In this document: positions 4,770-27,366 of the stretch, in pieces
Layout of the letters: each line of letters begins with the position of its first letter
Position numbering within the stretch: the first letter of the stretch is position 1
From: a virus
IMG/VR virus record: IMGVR_UViG_3300018083_000081
Coordinates: 1-34,866 of that record
Strand: one strand, 5' to 3'
Length of the DNA stretch: 34,866 nt
Translations under genes and position numbers: made by a program
Notes under the pieces: model-generated
Told to the model about the DNA's origin: nothing
The model's input: the letters and a program-made list of their open reading frames with translations, nothing else
Database searches by the model: none

Positions 4770-7153
4770 TGGCGACCTCTCTCCGCAACGCCGCCCCGCT
4801 GAATTTCGTCGCCAAGGGCGTCAGCGACACGGCGGACGCGACCAATTCCGGCCGCGGCGCGATGCGGGCGATGACCAACATGGTGCCGGACTCGACCAGC
4901 CGCGGCATCTTCGTGTGCCGGCCCGGGGCCATCGACCAGGTCGATTTTTCCAGTCTCATCGCCGCGACCTTCGTCTCCCAATACATCCCCTTCGGCAACA
5001 TCGTTTACGGCATGGTGTCGAGCGGGCTCAATCCCGGCAAGGATCAGCCCTTCGCCTACGACCTGGAGGCGGCGAGCTACCTGCCGGTGTCCGGTATCGA
5101 GGACCGCAACACGCCAACCTCGCCCCCGGCGACCGGCGATTGGGTGCCTCCGATCATGGCGCGGGTGGGCAGCCGCATCCTGGTGACGCATCCGGGCTTC
5201 CCCGGCGACGACATCAAGTTCGGCTGGTTCGACATTTCCGAGTTCTTTTCCATCGTCACGGTGGAGTTCACCAGCGGTCTGCCGTTCCTGTTCGGCGCTC
5301 CCTCGCTGATCGGGGTGCAGCCGGGGCATCAGATCGGTGGCTCGGCGGTGTTCCCGGCTCAGACCCGGGTAAAAAATGTTTTTTATAATACCCAGTCGGT
5401 CTTCGACTTCGCCGGCAACAGCCACGGCACCGATATCATCGACGGCATCTCGATTCCCGCGGCGATCGAGATGTACCCCGGAAAGACGGTGACCGGCCCC
5501 GGCGTTCAGCCCGGCACCACGATCCTCGGCACGCCGGCCGGCGCCTCGATCCAGTTGTCGCAGCCGACCACATCAAGCGTCGTGGCCGGGACCTTCCGCG
5601 TCATCGGCAACATCCCGGCGGTCTTTCCCTACGCCTATCGGGGGGACTTCACGGCCAGCGACAAGTTCATCGCCAATGTCGGTATCACCACCGATCTCTA
5701 TATCGGGCAATTGATTGTCGCCGACCCGGCGCTGGTGCTGCCGGGCACCTACGTCGTGAACGTCTCCGGCACGACCGTCAACCTGACGCAGCCCCTCATC
5801 GGCACCGCCGCGAACCAGAATTTTTCCGCCATAGGGACGGTGATCGAGCTGACGGACGCCCCGTCCGCCAGCGGCGTCGGGCCGCTCTCGCTCAGCGGCG
5901 GATCGCCCTCCGCGCCGCTGTGGGGTGCCGGCGATACCGCGATCAACCCGCTCCCCTCGGTGCCGGTCGGCGTGGAACAGATGAATGGGCGGGCATGGTT
6001 TGCCGCCGGAGATTACGGCATCCCGTGGTCCGACAGCCTGCTGCCCTGCATCCGCACCGGCGGCAATCAGGCCCTGACGACCAACAATTCCCGTCCGGTG
6101 ACGGCGATCGGCCCCCTGATGCTCTCGGCGCCGATCACCGGCGGTATCGTGCAGTCGCTGATCGCCTTCCAGGGCTCCGCCTCGATGCAGCAGATCATGG
6201 GCGATCCCTCGACCCAGAACCTGTCGATGAACATCCTGCCGGTGCCGACCGGGACGTTGGCGCCGAACACGATCACCACCTCGACCCTGGGCCTTATCTT
6301 CGTGTCGCCCGAGGGGGTCCGCTATATCGACTTCCGGGGGCGAGTGTCGGACCCGATCGGCCAGGACGGCGATGGCGTGGTGGCGCCCTTCCTCGCGGTC
6401 ACCGAGCCGCCGATCGCCGGCCCCCGCGCCTCCCGCATGACGGCGGCGGCCAACGGCCGGACATTGCGGATCGACGTGCCGAACAGCGACGAGGAGATGG
6501 TCTCCTACTGGTTCGACCTCACCCGCCGCATCTGGACCGGCCCGCACACCGGCGCGGCGCGGCTGGTCAAGGTCTGGAACGACACGTTCCTCATCTTCTC
6601 GGCGACCCGCCTCGTGCTGCAACTCGCCGACGACACGCAGCACCCGGATTCGGTCTATGTCGAGAACGGCCGGGCGATGACCTACGAGTGGGAAACCTCG
6701 CTCCTGCCGGACACCGGGCAGATGTCGATGAACACCATCATCGAGTCCTCGGTGATGGTGGCGCTGCCGCCCGGCGAGCAGGTGCAGATCAACTTCCTGA
6801 CCGAGACGCGCGATGTCCCGGACGGCGTGGCGGTGGCGGGGCTCGTCGTGCCCGTGGCGATCTGGGGGCAGGCGATCTGGGGGGTGACGTGGACGGGGCC
6901 GGACAGCGGCGTCATCCGGCAGCGCCAGATACCATGGACCGTGCCGCTGGTGTTCAAGCAGGGCCGGGTCAACATGCGGGGCCTGTCGAGCGCCGGCCTC
7001 GCCATCGGCAATCTTTACCTGCGCTTTCAGGTGCAGGGTAATATGCAGGAAGTGCCGCAGATACCGCCGGACCCGATGGCCGATTTCCTGCTGGCGAACG
7101 ACGGGGTCACGATCCTGCGCGACAATCGCATCGTCAACCTAACCCCGGGATAA
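4769..7153 (+). CDS. Tail nozzle / hub protein (P22 gp10 / T7 gp12-like)
   Basis: A 794-residue protein likely to form the tail tube end below the adaptor. The start MATSLRNAAPLNFVAKGVSD with NMVPDSTSRGIFVCRPG is typical of this family, as is the block at residues 440-560: IVQSLIAFQGSASMQQIMGD, then LAPNTITTSTLGLIFVSPEG and IGQDGDG. The C-terminal half has the expected alternating strands ending in LYLRFQVQGNM. Residues about 205-355 are an insertion with two Gly/Thr-rich modules (GPGVQPGTTILGTPAGASIQLSQ; LVLPGTYVVNVSGTTVNLTQ). An A6/T6 tract at 5371-5384 marks the upstream border of that insertion and stands out from the GC-rich surroundings. Followed three bases later by the tail spike. Confidence 0.75.
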   Translation: MATSLRNAAPLNFVAKGVSDTADATNSGRGAMRAMTNMVPDSTSRGIFVCRPGAIDQVDFSSLIAATFVSQYIPFGNIVYGMVSSGLNPGKDQPFAYDLEAASYLPVSGIEDRNTPTSPPATGDWVPPIMARVGSRILVTHPGFPGDDIKFGWFDISEFFSIVTVEFTSGLPFLFGAPSLIGVQPGHQIGGSAVFPAQTRVKNVFYNTQSVFDFAGNSHGTDIIDGISIPAAIEMYPGKTVTGPGVQPGTTILGTPAGASIQLSQPTTSSVVAGTFRVIGNIPAVFPYAYRGDFTASDKFIANVGITTDLYIGQLIVADPALVLPGTYVVNVSGTTVNLTQPLIGTAANQNFSAIGTVIELTDAPSASGVGPLSLSGGSPSAPLWGAGDTAINPLPSVPVGVEQMNGRAWFAAGDYGIPWSDSLLPCIRTGGNQALTTNNSRPVTAIGPLMLSAPITGGIVQSLIAFQGSASMQQIMGDPSTQNLSMNILPVPTGTLAPNTITTSTLGLIFVSPEGVRYIDFRGRVSDPIGQDGDGVVAPFLAVTEPPIAGPRASRMTAAANGRTLRIDVPNSDEEMVSYWFDLTRRIWTGPHTGAARLVKVWNDTFLIFSATRLVLQLADDTQHPDSVYVENGRAMTYEWETSLLPDTGQMSMNTIIESSVMVALPPGEQVQINFLTETRDVPDGVAVAGLVVPVAIWGQAIWGVTWTGPDSGVIRQRQIPWTVPLVFKQGRVNMRGLSSAGLAIGNLYLRFQVQGNMQEVPQIPPDPMADFLLANDGVTILRDNRIVNLTPG

Positions 7154-16809: not shown

Positions 16810-18720
16810 ATGTTCCCCTTGATGGCGCTGGGCGCCGGCCTTGGCCAGTTCGCGCAGGACTTCCGGCAGCAGCAGGCGCAGCAGGAGCGCTCCCTGATGT
16901 TGCAGATGCAGCTTGCCGAGTACCAGCGCGCCCTCGACAAGGACAAGCGGGAGTCGGAGGCGTCCGGTCTCGCCCTCAATTTCGGCCTGCCGGGGGCCGG
17001 CGGCGCCCCTGGCGGCTCTTCGTTTGGGTTGCCGCCGTCGCCGTCCAGCTTCGGCGGCTCTCCCGCTACTGCCGGGGGTGGCGGCGGCATGACCCTTGCC
17101 GAGGTCAAGGCAGCGGCGCGTCGCGCCGGCTTTGACGAGGATGGCGCCAACACCATGGCTGCCATCTCCGTGCCGGAGAGCAGCCTCAACCCCAATGCCT
17201 ACAACCCGAATGACCCGTCCGGCGGCTCGTTTGGCCTGACGCAGATCAACGGCGTGCATCCCGGCGCGCGTGAGGCGTTGGGCAATCCCGACAGGGCGAT
17301 GGAGTTGGCCTTTCGGGTGAGTAAGGGCGGCACGAATTTCAGCCCGTGGACGGCCTACAGAAGCGGCGCCTATAAGCCGTATCTGGCCGAAGCGTCGCGG
17401 ATTCTGCCGGCCGGACCCTCCGCCGCGCCCGCCTCGTTCGATCGCGGCCGGGCCGTCATGGACCCAAGCATGCCGAATACGGCCGAGGGCCGGGCCGCCG
17501 CGGCGCCGATGTCGGAAGCGTCAGCGGGCTATGCCGAGGCGATCGGGCGGGGCTTTAGGGGCACGATCCAGGACTTTGCCGGACGGGGCGGCGGCCCGCA
17601 AACCGCGGGGCCGGCGGTCGGGCAGCAAATGGCGCAGGCGCAAGTGCAGGGCGCGCCGGTGCCGCCGCCCTCGCTGCGGGACATCGCCCTGCTGCTGCGC
17701 AGTAAAAACCCCACCACGGACAGCCGCGTGATCTGGGATGCGGCAGATAGATTCCATAAGCGCGAGCAGGAAAACTACAAGCTCAATTTCGAGCGCTGGA
17801 AGGCGTCAACCGGCTTTGCCGGAGACGCCGCAACCCGCGCCGAGACGAGCCGCCACCATCAGGTATCGGAGGGTTTCGAAGGGCAGAAGATCAGCCTGGA
17901 GGAGCAGGGCCTCAAAGAGAAGATCGCGGCCGGCACGGCGACCCGCGCCGACCAACTCCGCAACCGCGAGTTGGAGGAGCGCCGGATCGTCGAGACCGAG
18001 CGGGCGAACCGGGAGAAAGAGAGGGGAGACGCCGCGACCCGCACCGAGGCGGGCCGCCACCATCAGGTCACAGAGGGCTTCGAGGGGCAGAAGATCGGCT
18101 TGGAGGAGCAGGGCCTCAAGGAGAAGATCGCGGCCGGGACCGCGACCCGCGCCGACGCGCTGCGCAATCGCGAACTGGAGGAGCGCCGGATCGCCGAGAC
18201 CGAGCGGGCGAACCGGGCGAGAGAGAAGGGCGTCGCGGCCAACACCCAGGCCCGCATCGGCAAGGAAACGTCGAAGGTCGATTTGGCGACGACCGAACTC
18301 GAAACGCTGGCGAACGAAGCCGATCAGTTGTCGCAGATGGTCGAGGCGAACCCCAAGCTGGTCGGCGCCAAGGGCATCGTCGGACGCGCGGTCGGCAGCG
18401 TCGGCGAGCAGCTGGGTATTCTGGATGAAGACCCGGCGCTGGCACAATTCAAGAGCAAGGTGCAACTGCTGCAATCCCGGCTTGCCAAGCCCCTGCTCGG
18501 CGCGCGCTACTTCAGCAAGCCGTCGCAGGACCGCCTGAACCAGCTTCTCCCCGGCCTCCAGCGCCTCGACAACCCGACAGCCGTGGTGCAGTCGCTGAAG
18601 AATGTTTCCGAGGTATTGAAGACCAATGCAGCCGCCATGAAGGCGGCCTCCGGCGCGGTTTCCGAGGACATCTCGAAACTGACTGACGACGAGATCAAAA
18701 AGCAACTCGGGCTGGAATAG
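16810..18720 (+). CDS. Internal virion protein with lytic transglycosylase domain (636 aa)
   Basis: An ejection protein that likely opens the peptidoglycan during DNA entry. Residues about 94-195 form a soluble lytic transglycosylase (lysozyme-like) domain: MTLAEVKAAARRAGFDEDG, catalytic Glu123 in SVPESSLNPNA, SFGLTQIN at 140-147, and FSPWTAYRSGAYK at 177-189. A Gly/Pro linker separates this from an N-terminal Gln-rich helix. Residues 340-475 are two near-identical 68-residue charged repeats, probably coiled coil. The C-terminus (SRLAKPLLGARYFSKPSQDR and LKTNAAAMKAASGAVS) is helical and typical of phage internal proteins. The next gene starts directly after the stop. Confidence 0.8.
   Translation: MFPLMALGAGLGQFAQDFRQQQAQQERSLMLQMQLAEYQRALDKDKRESEASGLALNFGLPGAGGAPGGSSFGLPPSPSSFGGSPATAGGGGGMTLAEVKAAARRAGFDEDGANTMAAISVPESSLNPNAYNPNDPSGGSFGLTQINGVHPGAREALGNPDRAMELAFRVSKGGTNFSPWTAYRSGAYKPYLAEASRILPAGPSAAPASFDRGRAVMDPSMPNTAEGRAAAAPMSEASAGYAEAIGRGFRGTIQDFAGRGGGPQTAGPAVGQQMAQAQVQGAPVPPPSLRDIALLLRSKNPTTDSRVIWDAADRFHKREQENYKLNFERWKASTGFAGDAATRAETSRHHQVSEGFEGQKISLEEQGLKEKIAAGTATRADQLRNRELEERRIVETERANREKERGDAATRTEAGRHHQVTEGFEGQKIGLEEQGLKEKIAAGTATRADALRNRELEERRIAETERANRAREKGVAANTQARIGKETSKVDLATTELETLANEADQLSQMVEANPKLVGAKGIVGRAVGSVGEQLGILDEDPALAQFKSKVQLLQSRLAKPLLGARYFSKPSQDRLNQLLPGLQRLDNPTAVVQSLKNVSEVLKTNAAAMKAASGAVSEDISKLTDDEIKKQLGLE
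17827..18234 (+). repeat. Two tandem 204-bp repeats in the ejection protein gene
   Basis: Two copies of a 204-bp unit (17827-18030 and 18031-18234) encode 68-residue repeats that each start AATR and contain HHQV, EGFEGQKI, LEEQGLKEKIAAGTATRAD and ELEERRI. The copies differ at only a few residues (for example ETSR against EAGR). A third start (AANTQARIG) follows, so an older partial copy may exist. The high similarity suggests recent duplication or gene conversion. Confidence 0.85.
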
Positions 18721-21636
18721 ATGTCCGACCTCCCCGCAAGCCCCGACACTCAGGGGCGGCTAGAGCTGCTTGGCGAGGCCTATAAGCGCGGGCTGCTGCC
18801 GCCGGATCGGGCGCGGCTATACGAGGAGGGACAAAAACGAGGCCTGTTCAAAGCCCCCGCGGCCGCGGTGCCCCCGAGCGGCGAGTTGGTTCCCGGCGGC
18901 GCGCTGGCCAATCCCAACGCGCCAGCGCCGGACACCGAGATCGGCATCGGCCTGGCGACCCCGGGCCGAGCGCCCAGCGTGCCCCGGCAGCAGCGTGGCA
19001 TAATCGACCTGGCGGGCGAGCGGGCGAGCGGTATCAGGGGCGAGATGCGGCTCCTCCAGGGCTATGACCCGGAGGTAGATTACGACACCGGCACCGGCTG
19101 GAACGATGCGGTGGCGATGCACCGCTCCGACAACCCGGCCGAGAAGCGGTCCTATCTTGCCCGCAAGTATGGCCCTGAGAATGTCTTTACCGATCGCGGC
19201 GGCCGGTTCGTGGTGCGCGGGCAGGACGGCAAGATGCTGTCGCCGGAAGGCACCGGGTTCATGAACAACCTGATGCAGGGGAGCGCCGGGATCTATGCCG
19301 ATGCGCCGATGATCGCGGGGGCAACCGGCGGCGCCATGGTCGGCGCCCCCGCTGGGCCGCTGGGTGCTATTGCCGGGGCGACGGCCGGCTCCGCTCTCGG
19401 CAAGACCGCGATCGAGGGCAGCAAGGCGCTGAGCGGCGATTTTCAGAAGACGATCCCGGAGACGGCGCTGTCGATCGGCATGGGTGGGCTGATGGGCGGC
19501 GCCGGGGAGGGGGCGGGCCGGCTCATCACCGGCATCCCCGGCGCGCTTGGCGGAGCCTTTCGCAAGTATGTGACCGGGACGACGCCGGAAGCGATGGACC
19601 TGGCCGCCTCGGTTCAGCGGGCCGGTGGCGTTGCTCCATTGCGCTCGGTGGCGCCGGGCCTCTCCTCGCCCATCCAGAAACAGGACGTGGCAGCCCGCCT
19701 CGGCGCCGACTTCCTGGAAAACCCAAACCGGGCGGCTGTCCAAGGTCGGCTGGGCGAGATTGTTGGGGCGGAATTTCCGGCGGCCGAGCGGCCGGGGGCC
19801 ATGCGCGAGATCATGGACCCAACGGCGCGGGTGTCCTCGCGCGAGGCGGGGACCGCGGTGCAGCGCGAGGTGCAGCTGCATGGCGCGCAGCTGGACGCCG
19901 AGGTCGATAACCTGGCGCGCGACGCCGACCGGATGCTGACGCAGCAGCTGCGGGGCCTGGGCGCCATCCCGCGCCGGGCCCCGGCGGGCGACCTCGGCAG
20001 CGATGTGGCGGCCGGGATCGCGGAGGCGCGCAACGACTTTAGCCGCTCGATGCAGAGCATCTACTCGCGCGTCGATCAGGCGACGGGCGGTGCGGAGATC
20101 GTCCCCACGGGGGCGATCAAGCGGGAGGCGCGGCGCATCCTCGATGCCCTGCCGAAAGATGCACAGGGCAACCCGATATTCGGCGATCAGCGAGTTCTGA
20201 GGTCCCTCGGGCAGCTACGCGACATCGGGCCGAAGATGACCCTCAGCGACGCGCAGAGCATTCGCGCCACCCTTGGGGAGATGGGCCAGTTCACCGACCT
20301 GACCCCAGGCGTCGCCAAAAAGCAGTTCGGCGATCTGCGGCAGAGCGTCAACACGGCGATCGGGATGGCGGCCCGCGACCCGGCGGCGGCCCCGGCAGTA
20401 AACATGCTGCGCCGCGCCGACCAACTCTACGGCGAGGGCATCCGTAAATTCGAGGATACGACGGTCAACCAGATCGTCAATCAGGCCCGCACCGGCATGA
20501 TGCCGGACCCAGGGGCCATCGCCGACAAGGTGCTGCAACCGAAATTTACGGCCCGCGCCCGCGAGATCAGGGGCATGGTCGGGCCGGACGTGTGGCGTCG
20601 GGTGGCCTCCGCCGACTGGGAGAATGTCGTAGCCGCCGCCCGAGACCCGCAGACCGGCGAGATGTCGGCCCGCAAGCTGGCGACGCTGGTGCAGCAGAAG
20701 GACCGCGACGGCCTCCTGGAGCTGACCTATGGGCCGCGGTTGGCCGGGGAGATGCGGCTCTACAGCCGTCGCCTCGACGCGCGCGGCGGGAAAGTCCCGG
20801 CGGGGCAACTGACCCCGGACAATTTCGCCCAAACCATGCAGCGGCTGGAGACGGCAAACCTGACCCGCGACAGCTTCCTGTCGAAGAATTACCTCTCGGA
20901 ACTGTCGAAGCCCGGAGCGTCGGCCGACGATGCGATCGGCTATGTCCTGCGGCCCGGCCAGGAGACGCGCCTGATCGAGGCGCAGCGCTTCTTTGGCGAC
21001 CAGTCGCCGCAGATGGCTGCGATCCGGCAGCAGGCCCTGAAAGAGCTGCTGAACTCGTCGATCGCCCGCACCGAGACGGGCGCGGGAACGATGGTGGTTG
21101 GCGACGGCATAGATCAGGCTTTGCGGCGGTGGACCCCGCGGCAGCAGGAAATCATGTTCCCCGGCGGCCTGGCTGATGACATGCGGCGGCTGGCACAGGA
21201 AATTCGCTTCATGTTCCCACGTCGCGGCGACCAGCTGGGGGGCGCCCTGATTGCCGGCGCGGTCAAGAACCTCCCGTTGCCGGCCCGCATCCCGGCCCTG
21301 GCCTACTATCAGGGCATGGGCTGGATTTTTTCCCAGCCCCGCGTCGTGAAGGCGATCGTCGCCGGGCTGGAGCCGGGGCCGGCAAAGGCGGCGACCCGCG
21401 AGACGATCCGCATGATCTTCCGCGAGGCGGCGATCGGAGAGCTTCCGCACCCGGACGAGACGCCGGAGCCAGGGGTCATGTCTCCGAGTCAGGCGGCCGT
21501 CACGATGATGGGCCGCAACTATGGTGTCGGCGCCGGGCCGAGGGCGCCCATCCCGCGCGGACTACGGGGCGCTCCGCAGGCGCCTCCCGCTAATGCCGAG
21601 CCTCGCGACCTCAGGCCGAGCATCGGCGGCCCGTAG
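18721..21636 (+). CDS. Large internal virion / ejection protein (971 aa)
   Basis: The third and largest of the ejection set, in the place of T7 gp16. The N-terminus holds a short helical motif LLGEAYKRGLLPPDRARLYEEG, followed by a Pro/Ala linker. Around residues 133-175 lies YLARKYGPENVFTDRGGRFVV, a segment seen in many phage internal core proteins. Residues about 195-260 are Gly/Ala-rich (MIAGATGGAMVGAPAGPLG, IAGATAGSALGKTAIEG) and could insert into a membrane. The rest is long and helical. No catalytic domain is seen. The stop overlaps the start of the ATP-grasp gene (TAGTG), so that enzyme is made with the late proteins. Confidence 0.7.
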   Translation: MSDLPASPDTQGRLELLGEAYKRGLLPPDRARLYEEGQKRGLFKAPAAAVPPSGELVPGGALANPNAPAPDTEIGIGLATPGRAPSVPRQQRGIIDLAGERASGIRGEMRLLQGYDPEVDYDTGTGWNDAVAMHRSDNPAEKRSYLARKYGPENVFTDRGGRFVVRGQDGKMLSPEGTGFMNNLMQGSAGIYADAPMIAGATGGAMVGAPAGPLGAIAGATAGSALGKTAIEGSKALSGDFQKTIPETALSIGMGGLMGGAGEGAGRLITGIPGALGGAFRKYVTGTTPEAMDLAASVQRAGGVAPLRSVAPGLSSPIQKQDVAARLGADFLENPNRAAVQGRLGEIVGAEFPAAERPGAMREIMDPTARVSSREAGTAVQREVQLHGAQLDAEVDNLARDADRMLTQQLRGLGAIPRRAPAGDLGSDVAAGIAEARNDFSRSMQSIYSRVDQATGGAEIVPTGAIKREARRILDALPKDAQGNPIFGDQRVLRSLGQLRDIGPKMTLSDAQSIRATLGEMGQFTDLTPGVAKKQFGDLRQSVNTAIGMAARDPAAAPAVNMLRRADQLYGEGIRKFEDTTVNQIVNQARTGMMPDPGAIADKVLQPKFTARAREIRGMVGPDVWRRVASADWENVVAAARDPQTGEMSARKLATLVQQKDRDGLLELTYGPRLAGEMRLYSRRLDARGGKVPAGQLTPDNFAQTMQRLETANLTRDSFLSKNYLSELSKPGASADDAIGYVLRPGQETRLIEAQRFFGDQSPQMAAIRQQALKELLNSSIARTETGAGTMVVGDGIDQALRRWTPRQQEIMFPGGLADDMRRLAQEIRFMFPRRGDQLGGALIAGAVKNLPLPARIPALAYYQGMGWIFSQPRVVKAIVAGLEPGPAKAATRETIRMIFREAAIGELPHPDETPEPGVMSPSQAAVTMMGRNYGVGAGPRAPIPRGLRGAPQAPPANAEPRDLRPSIGGP

Positions 21637-23909
21637 TGGCTCGCGTTCTGATTGTCGAGCCCACCGCGGACGGTCTGCTCGATCTCGCGATCCGCGCCCA
21701 GCAGCACGGTCATTCCGTCCACTACTGGCTCAAATCATACGACCAGCACAAGCAGCCGGTCGGCCGGGGCCTCGTCGAGCGGGTCGCAGACTGGCGCTCA
21801 CTCGCCCGCCGAGTCGATCTGGTGATCCTCGGGAGCCTGGGTTACTGCGGCCGGGAGTTCGACCAATTGCGGGCCGAGGGGGTGCCGGTCATCGGGGCGC
21901 CGGGCCTCGTCGGCGAATGGGAGCTGGACCGCCTCGTCGGCATGCAGCAGTTCAAGCGTGCCGGTATCCCGGTCCCACCGTACCGCCAATGCACCAATTA
22001 CGACGAAGCGATCAGCCTCGTCTCGCAGCGCGACGACGGGGTAGCGATCAAGCCATGCGGGGACGTGACCGACAAGAGCCTCAGCTTCGTCGCCAAGACC
22101 CCGCGCGAGGCGGTCTGGCGGTTGCAGCGGTGGAAGCGGGAGGGCAGGCGGTTTCCCCATGGGTTCATCCTCCAGGAGCTGGTCGAGGGCGTAGAGTTCG
22201 CGGTCGGCGGCTGGATCGGCCCCGGCGGGTTCGCCGAGGGGTGGGAAGAAAATTTCGAGGAGAAACGCCTCTTTGCCGGTGGCGTCGGTCCCAATTGCTA
22301 CTCGGCCGATACGGAGGTCCTTACAGCCGTGGGCTGGAAAGCGTGGCCGGATGTCAAAAAAGCCGACTGTCTCGCTACGCTCAATGACGGGCTCGTCTGT
22401 TACGTGATGCCAGACCGGCTGGTCGAGAGCGACTTCGATGGCGAGATGATCGGCTGGCGGTCTAACCGCGTCGATCTGCTCGTCACCCCGGATCACGCGA
22501 TGTACGTCGCCGACCGCGATACGGTCCGTCGCGGTGAGCCCGAGTTCTACCGGGCCGCAGCCGATGGCCTCGCCGAGAACCGGATAGAGAAGAAATTCGC
22601 CGTGCTGCGGGTCGGGCGTTGGGCCGCCCCCGGTAATCCCTCGATCACCCCGGCCCGCGCCCGCCTTCTGGGTATGTTTCTGGCGGACGGTCATTGCGGG
22701 CAGCGGTCAATCGTGTTCGGCAATTGCCCGGCCCACAAAGAGGCTCTGATTCGCGATGCGGCACTGGCGTGCGGCTACGTTGCGCACCGCTATGGCGCGG
22801 ATGTCTACATCAACAGCCGCGACCTGGCTAATGCCTGGCGGCACTTCCCCAAAGCCGTCGAGAAGCGGGCGCCGCAAGAAATCATGGGCGCGGCGCCCGA
22901 CGTAATTGCTGCGTTCCTCGATGGGCTTGCCCTCGACGCGGCGACAATGGGCAATCGGGTCTACACCACGGCCAGCCGGGGCATGGCCGATGATATCCAG
23001 ATCATGCTGATGCGCATCGGCCTCGCCGGGCATGTCCACGAGCGCGACCGCCGCGGCGAGCCCGAGCGGGAGCTGGGCGGCTACATCATCCGGGGCGGCC
23101 TGTCTTGGGATGTCGGGGTATCCTCTCAGGCTCTCGCGTGGCTCCGGCCGAGGTATTGCTATCGCGCGCCCTACCGCGGGAAGGTCTATTGCGCGACCGT
23201 CAACTCGGAGTCGCATGCCCTGTTTGTTCGCAGGAACGGGAAGGCGTGCTGGTCCGGCAATTGCGGCGAGGCCGGCACCGTGATGCGGCTGGTAGCGCGC
23301 AGCAAGCTGGCTGACCGCGTCCTGAAGCCCCTCGAAGATCGCCTTGTGAGCCTCGGCTACGTTGGCAACATCGACGTGAATTGTATTGTTGACGAGGACG
23401 GCAGCCCGTGGCCCCTGGAGTTCACAGCTCGCTTTGGGTATCCCGCAATCAACATAGAGCTTGCACTTCATGGCGACCCTATCGAGTTTCTGGCCGGGCT
23501 TGCGGCCGGGAAGCCGCCCAAGACGCGGCGGCTGGACGAGGTGGCGGTCGGCGTCGTCTGCGCCCTGCCGCCATACCCGTACCGGGAGAAGCCGGACGAG
23601 ACGGTCGGGGTGCCGATCTGGGGTGTGACGCCCGGCATCGAGGACAACATCCACCTCTGCATGGCCCAGGTCGGCGAGTTCGAGAAGCGCCCCACGCTGA
23701 TGACCGCCGGCAGCTACGTCCTAGTATCGACCGGGACCGGCGAGAGTGTCGTTGCGGCCCGCAACGAGGCGTACCGCGTGCTCGATCGCCTGACCATCCC
23801 GGCCTCGCCCTTCTGGCGGAATGACATAGGGAGCCGTCTTTCGAGAGACGTCCCGCGACTGCAGGAGCATGGCTATGCCGCGGGGTTAAGGTACAGCGCA
23901 GCCGCATGA
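21636..23909 (+). CDS. PurD-like ATP-grasp ligase interrupted by an intein
   Basis: The precursor has 757 residues; removal of the intein leaves 435, close to the 420-430 of glycinamide ribonucleotide synthetase (PurD). Support for the family: MARVLIVEPTADGLLDLAIR at the N-terminal pre-ATP-grasp fold, the KRAGIPVPPY stretch, VAIKP, ILQELVEGVEFAVGGW, the GPN motif (PurD has GPNTGG; here GPN-C-GE across the splice site), and LEFTARFGYPAINIELAL, the place of the RFGDPE segment. The PurD phosphate loop GGGGREHA is absent, so the substrate may differ from phosphoribosylamine and glycine. ATP-grasp enzymes join a carboxylate to an amine using ATP. The GTG start overlaps the previous stop. Fold and family sure; substrate unknown. 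Confidence 0.8.
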   Translation: MARVLIVEPTADGLLDLAIRAQQHGHSVHYWLKSYDQHKQPVGRGLVERVADWRSLARRVDLVILGSLGYCGREFDQLRAEGVPVIGAPGLVGEWELDRLVGMQQFKRAGIPVPPYRQCTNYDEAISLVSQRDDGVAIKPCGDVTDKSLSFVAKTPREAVWRLQRWKREGRRFPHGFILQELVEGVEFAVGGWIGPGGFAEGWEENFEEKRLFAGGVGPNCYSADTEVLTAVGWKAWPDVKKADCLATLNDGLVCYVMPDRLVESDFDGEMIGWRSNRVDLLVTPDHAMYVADRDTVRRGEPEFYRAAADGLAENRIEKKFAVLRVGRWAAPGNPSITPARARLLGMFLADGHCGQRSIVFGNCPAHKEALIRDAALACGYVAHRYGADVYINSRDLANAWRHFPKAVEKRAPQEIMGAAPDVIAAFLDGLALDAATMGNRVYTTASRGMADDIQIMLMRIGLAGHVHERDRRGEPERELGGYIIRGGLSWDVGVSSQALAWLRPRYCYRAPYRGKVYCATVNSESHALFVRRNGKACWSGNCGEAGTVMRLVARSKLADRVLKPLEDRLVSLGYVGNIDVNCIVDEDGSPWPLEFTARFGYPAINIELALHGDPIEFLAGLAAGKPPKTRRLDEVAVGVVCALPPYPYREKPDETVGVPIWGVTPGIEDNIHLCMAQVGEFEKRPTLMTAGSYVLVSTGTGESVVAARNEAYRVLDRLTIPASPFWRNDIGSRLSRDVPRLQEHGYAAGLRYSAAA
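22296..23261 (+). mobile_element. Intein with LAGLIDADG-type homing endonuclease (322 residues)
   Basis: An in-frame protein intron. Block A is CYSADTEVLTAVGW with Cys1; block B is DLLVTPDHAMYVAD with the TPDH motif; the endonuclease blocks C and E are LLGMFLADG and FLDGLALDA, two LAGLIDADG helices; block F is VYCATVNSESHALFVRRNG; block G is CWSGN, followed by Cys+1 of the C-extein. The terminal Asn is present but the usual penultimate His is Gly, a variant known in several phage inteins. The LADG acid is kept, and the second motif ends in LALDA, so endonuclease activity is possible. Splicing joins GPN to CGEAG. Confidence 0.92.
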
Positions 23910-23927: not shown

Positions 23928-24572
23928 TCAAAATACCCGATGCCGCTCGCCTTGGGCGCGGGCGGCGGCGAATGCGGCGTGCGCCACCTCCGCTTGCCTA
24001 CGGCAAATTGTGTGGGGAACGTTGAGTGGATTCTCGTTTTGATTTCGGCAGGCGCAGCTGCCATGTACACGAACGCATTCGTCAGTAGTAATGCGTTCGG
24101 CAAAGTCGCGTGCAGCTTCCTGATCCTCCCCCGCGCCCGTGGTCCAGCGGAGACGGGTGACATCTTCTCTTGCCCATTCATAGGCGTATTCGTTAGCAAG
24201 TTCTCTCAGCCGCGCAACCTCCGCCTTGGACGCGTCGAGTTCGTTGCAGAGAACACGAAGCCGCCCTTCTATATGACGAACCTCCGCCTGGGATGCGGCG
24301 AGGGCGGATTGTGTTTCGCGTAAGCAATCTTCGATGTGACAGCGATGGTTGCCATATTCGTCGTTCCAGGGTGCGTGGCATTGATTTGCCGCCAGTGCGA
24401 AATTCCGTTTCTCGCTCGCGGCGAGGGCGGATTGTAGAAAGTCACCCCGCGCCTCGCCCGGCTGCGGCGCGTCGGGGACGCAGCGCGGGCATGGGGCGTC
24501 CATGCTCGGCAGCACCATCGCGCAGCTCTGGCAGATCGGCTCCGACTCCTCGATCTCGGCATCGTCAGGCAT
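23928..24572 (-). CDS. Cys-rich coiled-coil protein, last gene of recombination operon (214 aa)
   Basis: Not recognised. The ATG at 24572 follows GAGGGGAGAAAG, a very strong ribosome site. An upstream open extension to 24749 only translates the pentamer array and is rejected. The N-terminus has a zinc-ribbon-like pair (CQSCAMVLPSMDAPCPRC). Two segments QSALAASEKR and QSALAASQAEV come from an 18-bp direct repeat (24295-24312 and 24418-24435). Residues 85-150 are a coiled coil (EGRLRVLCNELDASKAEVAR). The tail has further cysteines (CVRVHGSCACRNQ). It converges on the ATP-grasp gene with an 18-bp gap. It could be a regulator or nucleic-acid-binding protein; nothing more specific is supported. 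Confidence 0.65.
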   Translation of the reverse strand: MPDDAEIEESEPICQSCAMVLPSMDAPCPRCVPDAPQPGEARGDFLQSALAASEKRNFALAANQCHAPWNDEYGNHRCHIEDCLRETQSALAASQAEVRHIEGRLRVLCNELDASKAEVARLRELANEYAYEWAREDVTRLRWTTGAGEDQEAARDFAERITTDECVRVHGSCACRNQNENPLNVPHTICRRQAEVAHAAFAAARAQGERHRVF

Positions 24573-24595: not shown

Positions 24596-24789
24596 CCACA
24601 CCGCGCCATAGCCCGCCCCGCCATTCCGAACCACGCCATACCCCGCCAAGCCGCGCCATACCGACGCCCGCCTGCCCGCACCTAGCCATTCCACGCCTCG
24701 CCGTGGCCAACCAGACCGCGCCGCACCCAACCGCGCCGGGCCTGTCCACTAGCCACAGCTTCCCAATTCCCCGCCGAGCCGCACCCGAC
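24596..24789 (-). repeat. Phased pentanucleotide array (NNNGG on the minus strand)
   Basis: Read in steps of five on the plus strand from 24596 to 24750, 28 of 31 pentamers begin with CC; in the other three (24611, 24666, 24706) the CC is shifted by one base. On the transcribed minus strand this is a run of NNNGG units. TATGG occurs three times, AATGG twice and CGCGG four times. A second, phase-shifted run (CC at 24769, 24774, 24779, 24784, 24789) reaches the stop region of the upstream RAMP-like gene. The array fills the intergenic gap before the gene starting at 24572. GG tracts spaced by three bases could also stack as two-layer G-quadruplexes in the mRNA. Confidence 0.8.
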
Positions 24790-25461
24790 CTACGCCTGGC
24801 ACACCCGATAAGAAACGACCGAAAATCGTCCGTATGTCGGCCGAAAATCGCCCAAACCGCCGATCCGGCCAGCCGTCGAGATGACCTCGTTCAGAACCTG
24901 CGGGCTGATGTACTCGGGCAGCGTGACGAGGATCAGGAATGTCGCGCGCCAGCCGACCTTCATGCCCGGCCGCGTTCTGTTGATGCCGCTGCGCTGAACC
25001 ACGACCCTGCGCTTGTCCTCGAAGTCCCATACGGTAGCGGCCGCGCCATACCCTGCCTCGCCCCTGCTTACCGCGGAATATAATGGGGCGAGAGGCGTCA
25101 AAGACCCCACCCCGGCCTTGAACAGGTCCATCGCCGACTTTCGTGGCGAGCGCGGGTCTTGTCGGAACTTGGCTGCGCCGACGATCGCGCCGCGCAGATA
25201 TTCACCAGGAATACAAATCTCCCCATCCTCATTGCGATAAACATAACTTTCGAGGTTGTCGCTCTTTTTTGCGGCGCTTCCTTTGGCCGCCTTGGCCTTC
25301 TCGTCTACCGCCTCCGGGTTCCAGCGATGGAACAGGATGTCGGCGGAGCCCTCGATCACGACCTCGACGGTGAAGGGCTCGCTCATCGCGATGATGTCGT
25401 TCCCGCCATCATTCGGATCGGCCAGATGTATTACTTCTGCCATTACTTTTGCTTTAGCCAT
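24790..25461 (-). CDS. Phage protein with RAMP/Cas7-like motifs (223 aa)
   Basis: Function unknown. Two sequence features recall RAMP (Cas7/Csm3-type) RNA-binding proteins: IPGEYLRGAIVGAAK at residues 84-98, like the RAMP IPGSSLKGA-R loop, and GGLGDFRPTYGRF at 201-213, like the C-terminal Gly-rich loop. Between them lies VGWRATFLILVTLPEYISPQ, a beta-alpha unit as expected in a ferredoxin-like fold. The start overlaps the preceding stop (TAATG). It is followed by the NNNGG pentamer array. It belongs to the recombination operon with ERF and YqaJ, so DNA or RNA binding during recombination is the safest guess. The RAMP link is by motif only. Confidence 0.7.
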   Translation of the reverse strand: MAKAKVMAEVIHLADPNDGGNDIIAMSEPFTVEVVIEGSADILFHRWNPEAVDEKAKAAKGSAAKKSDNLESYVYRNEDGEICIPGEYLRGAIVGAAKFRQDPRSPRKSAMDLFKAGVGSLTPLAPLYSAVSRGEAGYGAAATVWDFEDKRRVVVQRSGINRTRPGMKVGWRATFLILVTLPEYISPQVLNEVISTAGRIGGLGDFRPTYGRFSVVSYRVCQA

Positions 25462-25973
25462 TAATCCTTCTCCTCGGTCTTTTTGGCGAAGTCAACGACC
25501 AGCTGGATGCTACTGCTGTCGCCCATGTTGGCCCGGGAGTTCCAGGCTCTCTGATTTATCAGGGTAAGCCATCCAATTTGGGGGCTGACGGCCTCTATGC
25601 CGGAATGGATCACCACCCCGGGATTGGTCCGCAACGAGACGATCATTCGCTGAAACCGCACGCTGTATGGCGTGGCATTGCGCTCCCATGGGAGGCAGGT
25701 ATCCGGCGGGATGATCTCCAGGCCGATCTTGCCGAAATCGATCCCACCGGTCGCGTCCCCAAGCCGCTTGATGCGCCCAAGGTAGGACCTGAGCTCGACC
25801 CACTTGCTGGTGTCGAAAAGCTGCCGGTACGCCGTATCGTCGTCCGGGTCATCGGCCCCGGCGCGCGGTCCCCGGATCGGCAGCAGGCCCTCCTTGAACA
25901 AGCCCATGCGTTTCGGCAGCGAGGCCGCCAGCTCGTGCGGGTCCAGGAATGCCAGGGCGAGGATGTTCGGCAC
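25461..25973 (-). CDS. Unknown protein of recombination operon (170 aa)
   Basis: Not recognised. A GTG start follows the upstream stop by one base (TAG-C-GTG) and the end overlaps the RAMP-like gene start (TAATG), so the two products are made together. The N-terminus is LALAFLDPHELAASLPKRMG, then LLPIRGPRAGADDPDDDTAYR, an acidic stretch. The second half has strands YSVRFQRMIVSLRTNPGVVIH and IQLVVDFAKKTEEKD. No metal motif or Walker motif is visible. Tight coupling suggests it works with, or forms a complex with, the RAMP-like protein. Confidence 0.65.
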   Translation of the reverse strand: MPNILALAFLDPHELAASLPKRMGLFKEGLLPIRGPRAGADDPDDDTAYRQLFDTSKWVELRSYLGRIKRLGDATGGIDFGKIGLEIIPPDTCLPWERNATPYSVRFQRMIVSLRTNPGVVIHSGIEAVSPQIGWLTLINQRAWNSRANMGDSSSIQLVVDFAKKTEEKD

Positions 25974-26391: not shown

Positions 26392-26558
26392 GGCTCCCTC
26401 CCTAAGAACCAGCCCTCGACGGCATCTTGAATTGCCTCTGAAAGAGAGCGCAGGTCGGCGGCCGCCTCCGCTTCGGATGGCGCCCACGCCTTGTAAGACT
26501 CGCCCAAAAAATGCGCGGCAAGATCCCCACATGCCGGATCGACTCCTTTAGCGGCCAT
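26388..26558 (-). CDS. Small acidic helical protein (56 aa)
   Basis: A short frame starting at the ATG at 26558, inside the last 11 bases of the ERF gene, and ending in an ATGA overlap with the next gene. The product reads MAAKGVDPACGDLAAHFLGE, then YKAWAPSEAEAAADLRSLSE and AIQDAVEGWFLGREP: two short helices, acidic and compact. It fills the only gap between ERF and its downstream neighbour, and its coupling on both sides supports translation. Function unknown. Confidence 0.6.
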   Translation of the reverse strand: MAAKGVDPACGDLAAHFLGESYKAWAPSEAEAAADLRSLSEAIQDAVEGWFLGREP

Positions 26559-27366
26559 CGAATGCCTCCAGACCGTCGCTGCCCGCCAGCTTGCGTCGGC
26601 GGCCGGCGGCGCGCACCCGCAGCATGTCCATGCTTTCCCGGTGCGCCACCGGGTCGTCGATCGAGGCTTCCGCCCCGATCCGGTCGAGGGAGAGGAAGGC
26701 GGGCCACTCCTCCAGCCGGGTCAGCATCTCGGTGTCCCCCTCGGCGTCGATCGCGGCGGCGATCTCCCGCCACCGCTTGGTGGCCTCAGCGGCGGCGCCG
26801 GATGGCGCTGGGGCGGCCTGTTGGCGGGCGGGGGCACTGCGGGCGCCATTCGCGCTCTGCGGCGCCGGGCGACCGCGTGAGGGGGCGTCCTCGCCCTGCG
26901 CCACTTCGTCGGCGTCCTTCTCTCCGGTCGGGATCTTGAAGATCTGCCGTAAAAATTGTTTCTCGACGTAACTCTGCGCCGCCCCGTAGCTCTGCGGGCC
27001 GGTGATCGGCATCGCCAGGCTGCGCCGCATCGACTGCGAGACGCTGCCGTCCTCGTGCATGAAAGCCAGGGTGTAGTTGGCGAACAGCCACGGGGTCCGG
27101 CGGAGGTTGCCTTGCCGGTCGGTCGTTTCCGAGACGCGCACGTCGGTCTCGGTCTCGTCGATCAGCAGCGCCAGCCCGGCGGCAGCCATCAGCGGGCCGA
27201 TGCGTTCGTAGAACTTGTCGACGCTGACATAGCGGTAGCCGCCGTGCTCGTTCTTCTCGTCGGAGCCCAGCTGCCGGACCTGCATCTTGACGGCGATGAT
27301 CGCCTTGGCGATGGGTGCCGGCATGGGCGCGCGAACTTCGCCGGTCGTCGGATCGTGGTCGCTCAT
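26548..27366 (-). CDS. erf: ERF-family single-strand annealing protein (272 aa)
   Basis: A phage recombinase that anneals complementary single strands after end resection. The ERF core is clear: PIAKAIIAVKMQVRQLGSDE, then GYRYVSVDKFYERIGPLMAA and AGLALLIDE, followed by LFANYTLAFMHEDGS and the hallmark ITGPQSYGAAQSYVEKQFLR, QIFKIPTGEKDADE at residues 121-154. Residues 160-215 form a low-complexity Pro/Ala linker, and the last 55 residues are helical, as in other ERF proteins, whose C-termini bind partners. AGGAAAA lies before the ATG, which overlaps the KTSC stop (ATGA). The paired exonuclease lies upstream in the same operon. Confidence 0.88.
   Translation of the reverse strand: MSDHDPTTGEVRAPMPAPIAKAIIAVKMQVRQLGSDEKNEHGGYRYVSVDKFYERIGPLMAAAGLALLIDETETDVRVSETTDRQGNLRRTPWLFANYTLAFMHEDGSVSQSMRRSLAMPITGPQSYGAAQSYVEKQFLRQIFKIPTGEKDADEVAQGEDAPSRGRPAPQSANGARSAPARQQAAPAPSGAAAEATKRWREIAAAIDAEGDTEMLTRLEEWPAFLSLDRIGAEASIDDPVAHRESMDMLRVRAAGRRRKLAGSDGLEAFDGR

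Follow-up and report, generated by a model that had tools for sequence, protein, structure and literature searches.

A Cas7-type RAMP protein with an adjoining YNNGG repeat array in a phage genome: a probable VIPR locus

What is a Cas7-like protein doing in a phage, beside an array of five-nucleotide repeats and away from any CRISPR array? The question is raised by a 34,866-nt virus sequence (IMG/VR record IMGVR_UViG_3300018083_000081; hereafter the window), in which a 223-residue protein, P0001, is encoded next to such an array. A first-pass annotation made from the sequence had called P0001 RAMP/Cas7-like and suggested that a RAMP protein equipped with a repeat array of its own would be a new kind of system. 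The protein and the array both held up, but the novelty did not. VIPR (Viral Interference Programmable Repeat), described in a bioRxiv preprint whose first version is dated 27 April 2026, combines a phage-encoded RAMP protein (Vipr) with guide RNAs (vrRNAs) of YNNGG repeats, whose NN pairs recognise double-stranded DNA with one base skipped (PMC13142463). According to the accessible text of that preprint, vrRNA co-purification, reprogrammable repression and phage defence were demonstrated for SUSP1, and some VIPR guides target other VIPR systems. The vrRNAs described there have 9–16 repeats and an invariant 3' tail, structured in those of SUSP1; seven VIPR types are distinguished, with array architectures that vary between types (PMC13142463). 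Since VIPR was already public as a preprint in April 2026, the system at the window is not new. We put the probability that the locus is a VIPR system, mechanism included, at about 0.9. For this reading, the fold, family, array, linkage, skip rule in sibling phages and self-mismatch were computed here, while ribonucleoprotein formation, binding of double-stranded DNA and repression are taken from the accessible text of PMC13142463.

The features of the locus are as follows.
24790..25461 (-): vipr gene, encoding the 223-aa RAMP (Cas7-type) protein P0001 (AlphaFold2 model, Foldseek, profile match to 36pp)
25461..25973 (-): P0002, 170-aa ORF with a GTG start, translationally coupled, found in this virus alone
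24596..24750 (-): main YNNGG array, 31 units, candidate vrRNA precursor (shuffle score; same-strand linkage in relatives)
24769..24793 (-): five extra YNNGG units, the first at the stop codon of vipr, in a register different from that of the main array (sequence reading)
24824..24853 (+): site within vipr that the first vrRNA of the sibling phage L005 is predicted to target (19/20 pairing positions, 1-nt skip)
26548..27366 (-): ERF gene, upstream of vipr and P0002 (Pfam ERF, 4e-16)

This layout agrees with the first-pass annotation in both ORFs and their coordinates, in their coupling (the P0002 stop codon and the vipr ATG overlap by one base), in the ERF gene upstream and in the period-5 array adjoining the 223-aa gene. 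A gene with a probable start at 24572 follows the main array in transcription order. The window also encodes a YqaJ exonuclease, RusA and an AAA ATPase, and the Pfam matches of ten further genes are to phage functions. As had been claimed, the locus looks free of CRISPR components: no array of longer repeats was found in the window, and neither P0001 nor P0002 has a cas or PADLOC match. Two unrelated features were seen elsewhere. A GARS/ATP-grasp-like protein at 21636–23909 (+) (GARS_C, E 3e-8) appears to be split by an intein that carries a LAGLIDADG-like domain (E 4e-5), for which CYSADTEVL and CWSGNCG look like splice junctions, and a 204-nt tandem repeat occurs twice (87% matches) at 17821–18230 (+) inside a lysozyme-like (SLT_3) structural protein at 16810–18720.

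Fold and family of the RAMP protein

The AlphaFold2 model of P0001, built from 24 sequences (pLDDT 78, pTM 0.75), has a RAMP fold over residues ~27–223. The RAMP-like motifs noticed at first pass are present; the conserved ones are IPGEYLRGA and a glycine-rich loop, GGLGDFRPTYGRF, which is near-invariant among relatives. The top 50 Foldseek matches of the model are Cas7-type RAMPs only, among them Csm3 (6xn3_F, E 1.4e-6) and a type VII Cas7 (8z4j_J, E 1.5e-6), and VIA-align gave Z up to 11.8 over 163 residues with an rmsd of 4.1. Because the TM-scores against Cas7-type RAMPs are ~0.5, we consider P0001 to share their fold as a distant relative. As judged from the model, the profile matches below and synteny, the protein is a real, Cas7-like RAMP, and the original call was right. 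Identity to Cas7 is 10–15%, and in contrast to class 1 CRISPR-Cas systems with Csm3 or type VII Cas7, no CRISPR array or other cas genes are present at this locus, while a VIPR guide is a 5-nt tandem repeat that pairs non-contiguously. By analogy with Cas7, Vipr would be expected to polymerise on its guide RNA.

P0001 has the features that define a Vipr protein: it is a small RAMP in which one RRM-type core is accompanied by a G-loop and by no second RRM domain. A profile of window-like sequences alone matched PDB entry 36pp, "SUSP1 Vipr protein", at E 5.5e-8, and a profile including LESphi2-like relatives matched it at E 2.5e-57; hhalign gave 96.7% for the sequence relationship to SUSP1 Vipr. 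This match is one of sequence, and 36pp is absent from the structural library results (ending April 2026). The annotated SUSP1 vipr gene (KT454805, L063, 28474–29061) shares 38% identity with its LESphi2 homologue. Residues 1–26 of P0001 form an N-terminal extension that the SUSP1 and LESphi2 Vipr proteins lack. Searches of Pfam, NCBIfam and PADLOC returned no match for P0001, and the one significant PHROG was phrog_4652 (E 7e-15), a family of unknown function to which the VIPR work (PMC13142463) and the present analysis supply one.

The coupled neighbor did not behave as a partner. P0002 has no homologue in phages or IMG/VR other than in the same virus, no Pfam, PHROG, NCBIfam or PADLOC match and no similarity to SUSP1 vap1, and its single-sequence model (pLDDT 31) is uninformative. 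Thus, although the ORF and its coupling are as first described, P0002 is specific to this virus and was rejected as part of a conserved system. Compared with SUSP1, no vap1 homologue or otherwise recognisable vap gene lies beside the window's vipr. In the window, the P0002 gene takes the place of the siblings' upstream vrRNA.

The YNNGG array and its linkage to vipr

The main array keeps an unbroken 5-nt register over 31 units, 28 of which end in GG and three of which are YNNGC. It scores 22; none of 1000 dinucleotide shuffles of the 801-nt region scored above 5, and shuffles of the array itself reach 5.5 at most. An 8-unit stretch is almost unchanged in the siblings L003 and L011, whose arrays otherwise differ from that of the window. 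No significant fold was predicted at the end of the window's array (z +0.36), and a structured 3' tail is absent. Across the family, YNNGC is the commonest irregular unit, making up 81 of the 179 units that lack GG, which suggests that C in particular is tolerated in place of the second G. We also considered YNNGC units as guide boundaries and dropped the idea, since they show no positional preference in short LES-like arrays.

Relatives of P0001 fall into two groups, window-like (56–100% identity over the best segment) and LESphi2-like (about 30% identity in the alignment). At all 61 loci found by protein similarity (L001–L015 and L017–L062), at least one YNNGG array is close to vipr on the same strand, and no array scoring at least 6 was found on the opposite strand or elsewhere in these loci; six of them also have a weak run (6.5) inside the vipr gene. 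Window-like loci carry long arrays downstream of vipr and sometimes one short upstream array, while LESphi2-like loci carry several upstream arrays of 6–20 units, most of 9–12. Folded tails were predicted for the upstream vrRNAs of L005 (z -2.6) and L011 (z -3.2) and for LESphi2 (z -4.9). A conserved hairpin tail follows the short upstream vrRNA in L005 (2160–2290) and L011 (5873–6000), and the window is without it. In another sibling, L115, the array directly downstream of vipr reaches ~705 nt (about 141 units), a length well beyond the 9–16 repeats of the vrRNAs described. No neighbor gene is common to most of the 110 vipr loci with neighbors. Conservation of gene order, proposed as a check at first pass, therefore holds for the array beside vipr (61/61 relatives) and fails for P0002 (this virus only).

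One-base-skip decoding and predicted targets in sibling phages

How might such an array be read? Substitutions between homologous array units, summed over ten non-independent array pairs, number 77 at Y, 20 at N1, 17 at N2, 3 at G1 and 1 at G2, as would be expected of an informative NN, a structural GG and an unconstrained Y. From 367 arrays at 183 loci we then took all 3425 distinct windows of nine units and decoded them against the same loci, the search covering genes near vipr. With a one-base skip, 160 perfect (18/18) clusters were obtained, from seven guide arrays; the controls gave none for skip 0, two for skip 2 and none for reversed or shuffled unit order. One guide of L005 accounts for 114 of the 160 clusters, many of them at loci that had been fetched with that guide; the remaining 46 come from six guides free of this bias. 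Variable NN, constant GG and a 1-nt skip on the wobble position were thus found for the siblings and relatives.

The first guide of L005 lies antisense to the glycine-loop codons of vipr (GDFRPTYGRF), and the base it skips falls on the wobble position of every codon. In IMG/VR, the 18-base gapped pattern of this guide is matched exactly at 109 sites on 108 stretches; every site falls within a vipr gene, and 102 of the 109 have a YNNGG array no more than 2.5 kb away. In the vipr gene of the window itself, 19 of the 20 pairing positions agree with this guide. Other guides match an SF2 helicase (NVLTTGFDAP; NPCVVIPTAGGKT), a DUF669-like protein (PAGKYLAVI; ELSAICRAVGV; CKKRDDTGE), an AAA ATPase and a ParB-like protein, all named by motif recognition, not by family search. 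With the skipped base on the codon wobble, synonymous changes would be of no help to a rival.

The carriers' own genes are different. For all ten guides with a testable own copy, the target homologue in the same phage matches at 11–15 of 18 positions and never at 17 or more, while 7–83% of the other homologues reach at least 17/18. If own copies were random, the chance of ten out of ten would be roughly 0.001, or about 0.004 without L005, taken as a rough product of these fractions with independence assumed. The L005 vipr gene escapes by having AGR in place of CGN as Arg codons, and Tyr in place of Phe. Separately, the upstream guides of L005 (2104–2163) and L011 (5816–5875) each match the gene that immediately precedes vipr in the other phage; both matches fall on the peptide EDRFGNR, agree at 16/18 positions and are in frame with the wobble skip; reciprocal targeting between these two phages is possible, and the match is suggestive only. 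As far as the readable text of PMC13142463 goes, sibling targeting with self-escape and an anti-vipr guide are additional to what is reported there.

The window's array and its probable place among VIPR systems

In the mechanism we favor, the array immediately downstream of vipr would be transcribed into a guide RNA of YNNGG repeats, and Vipr would coat this RNA. Within every repeat, GGY would hold Vipr and NN would pair with DNA, one target base being skipped between pairs, as in SUSP1 (PMC13142463), and the bound complex would silence the target gene. Guides in this clade would aim at invariant core-gene motifs of sibling phages, the rival's vipr included; the skip on the wobble position would defeat synonymous escape by the rival, and the carrier's own changed copy would escape. 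By analogy with SUSP1, we infer that the array of the window, too, is transcribed and serves in the same way.

Searches with the window's own guides returned no convincing target. Three 8-unit (16-base) seeds, sixteen-fold less specific than the 18-base L005 pattern, had 7, 17 and 8 matches in IMG/VR; none extended into neighboring units, and we therefore regard them as chance. One 9-unit (18-base) seed had four matches in genome contigs, three of them to one Gallionella sequence and again with no extension, and all 9-unit windows of the array found no target in ~2.5 Mb of related phage DNA. A site in the window's own tail protein at 4999 was rejected (15/18, with none of 42 homologues better). 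These results, the missing structured tail, the three YNNGC units and broken units near the 5' part would suit a genuine VIPR member whose array has decayed and holds no working guides. We consider this unlikely, though the most credible of the alternatives: the register is unbroken over 31 units with 28 ending in GG, YNNGC is the commonest variant family-wide, the 8-unit stretch shared with L003 and L011 is almost unchanged, and the vipr gene is intact.

Much less probable is that the RAMP protein serves recombination as an ERF accessory that binds GG-periodic RNA or single-stranded DNA, with the array as a binding or annealing site instead of guides. The recombination and replication module of the window (ERF, YqaJ exonuclease, RusA, AAA ATPase) would fit this; however, among the other window-like relatives ERF was found in only one, L006, and a binding site predicts neither the codon-aligned perfect 1-nt-skip matches to sibling genes (160 vs. 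0–2) nor the self-mismatch nor the stronger conservation of NN relative to Y. The base composition of the window and a spurious ORF through the array (24749–23928) might point to an artefact, produced by low complexity or coding sequence in GC-rich DNA, but this reading is already refuted by the dinucleotide-preserving shuffles and by the absence of arrays elsewhere in the 61 loci.

Within the VIPR reading, the closest comparison is with SUSP1 and the P. fulva type II system. The single small RAMP with significant profile similarity to SUSP1 Vipr, the phage-encoded, same-strand YNNGG (GGY/NN) array, the siblings' 1-nt skip with the skipped base at the wobble and the presence of some guides aimed at other vipr genes are all shared. 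In contrast to the separate ~100-nt units with structured tails in SUSP1 and P. fulva, the array here is downstream, long and continuous, and whereas their targets are satellites and lysogeny regulators, those found in this clade are the siblings' core replication genes. It is about an even bet that the locus represents a variant form of VIPR in which the arrays are long, continuous and apparently without tails, no accessory gene is dedicated to the system, and the role is sibling-phage exclusion, with guides that read codon positions 1 and 2 of invariant motifs and a carrier that alters its own motif.

The analysis offers an independent, genome-only confirmation, in a distant clade, of the VIPR protein family and of the rule by which pairs are read with one base skipped. 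It provides more than 100 natural guide-target pairs with which VIPR action and phage escape may be tested. It also points to what the guides would be used for in this clade, in which sibling phages attack each other's replication genes and VIPR systems while the carriers' own copies are mutated.
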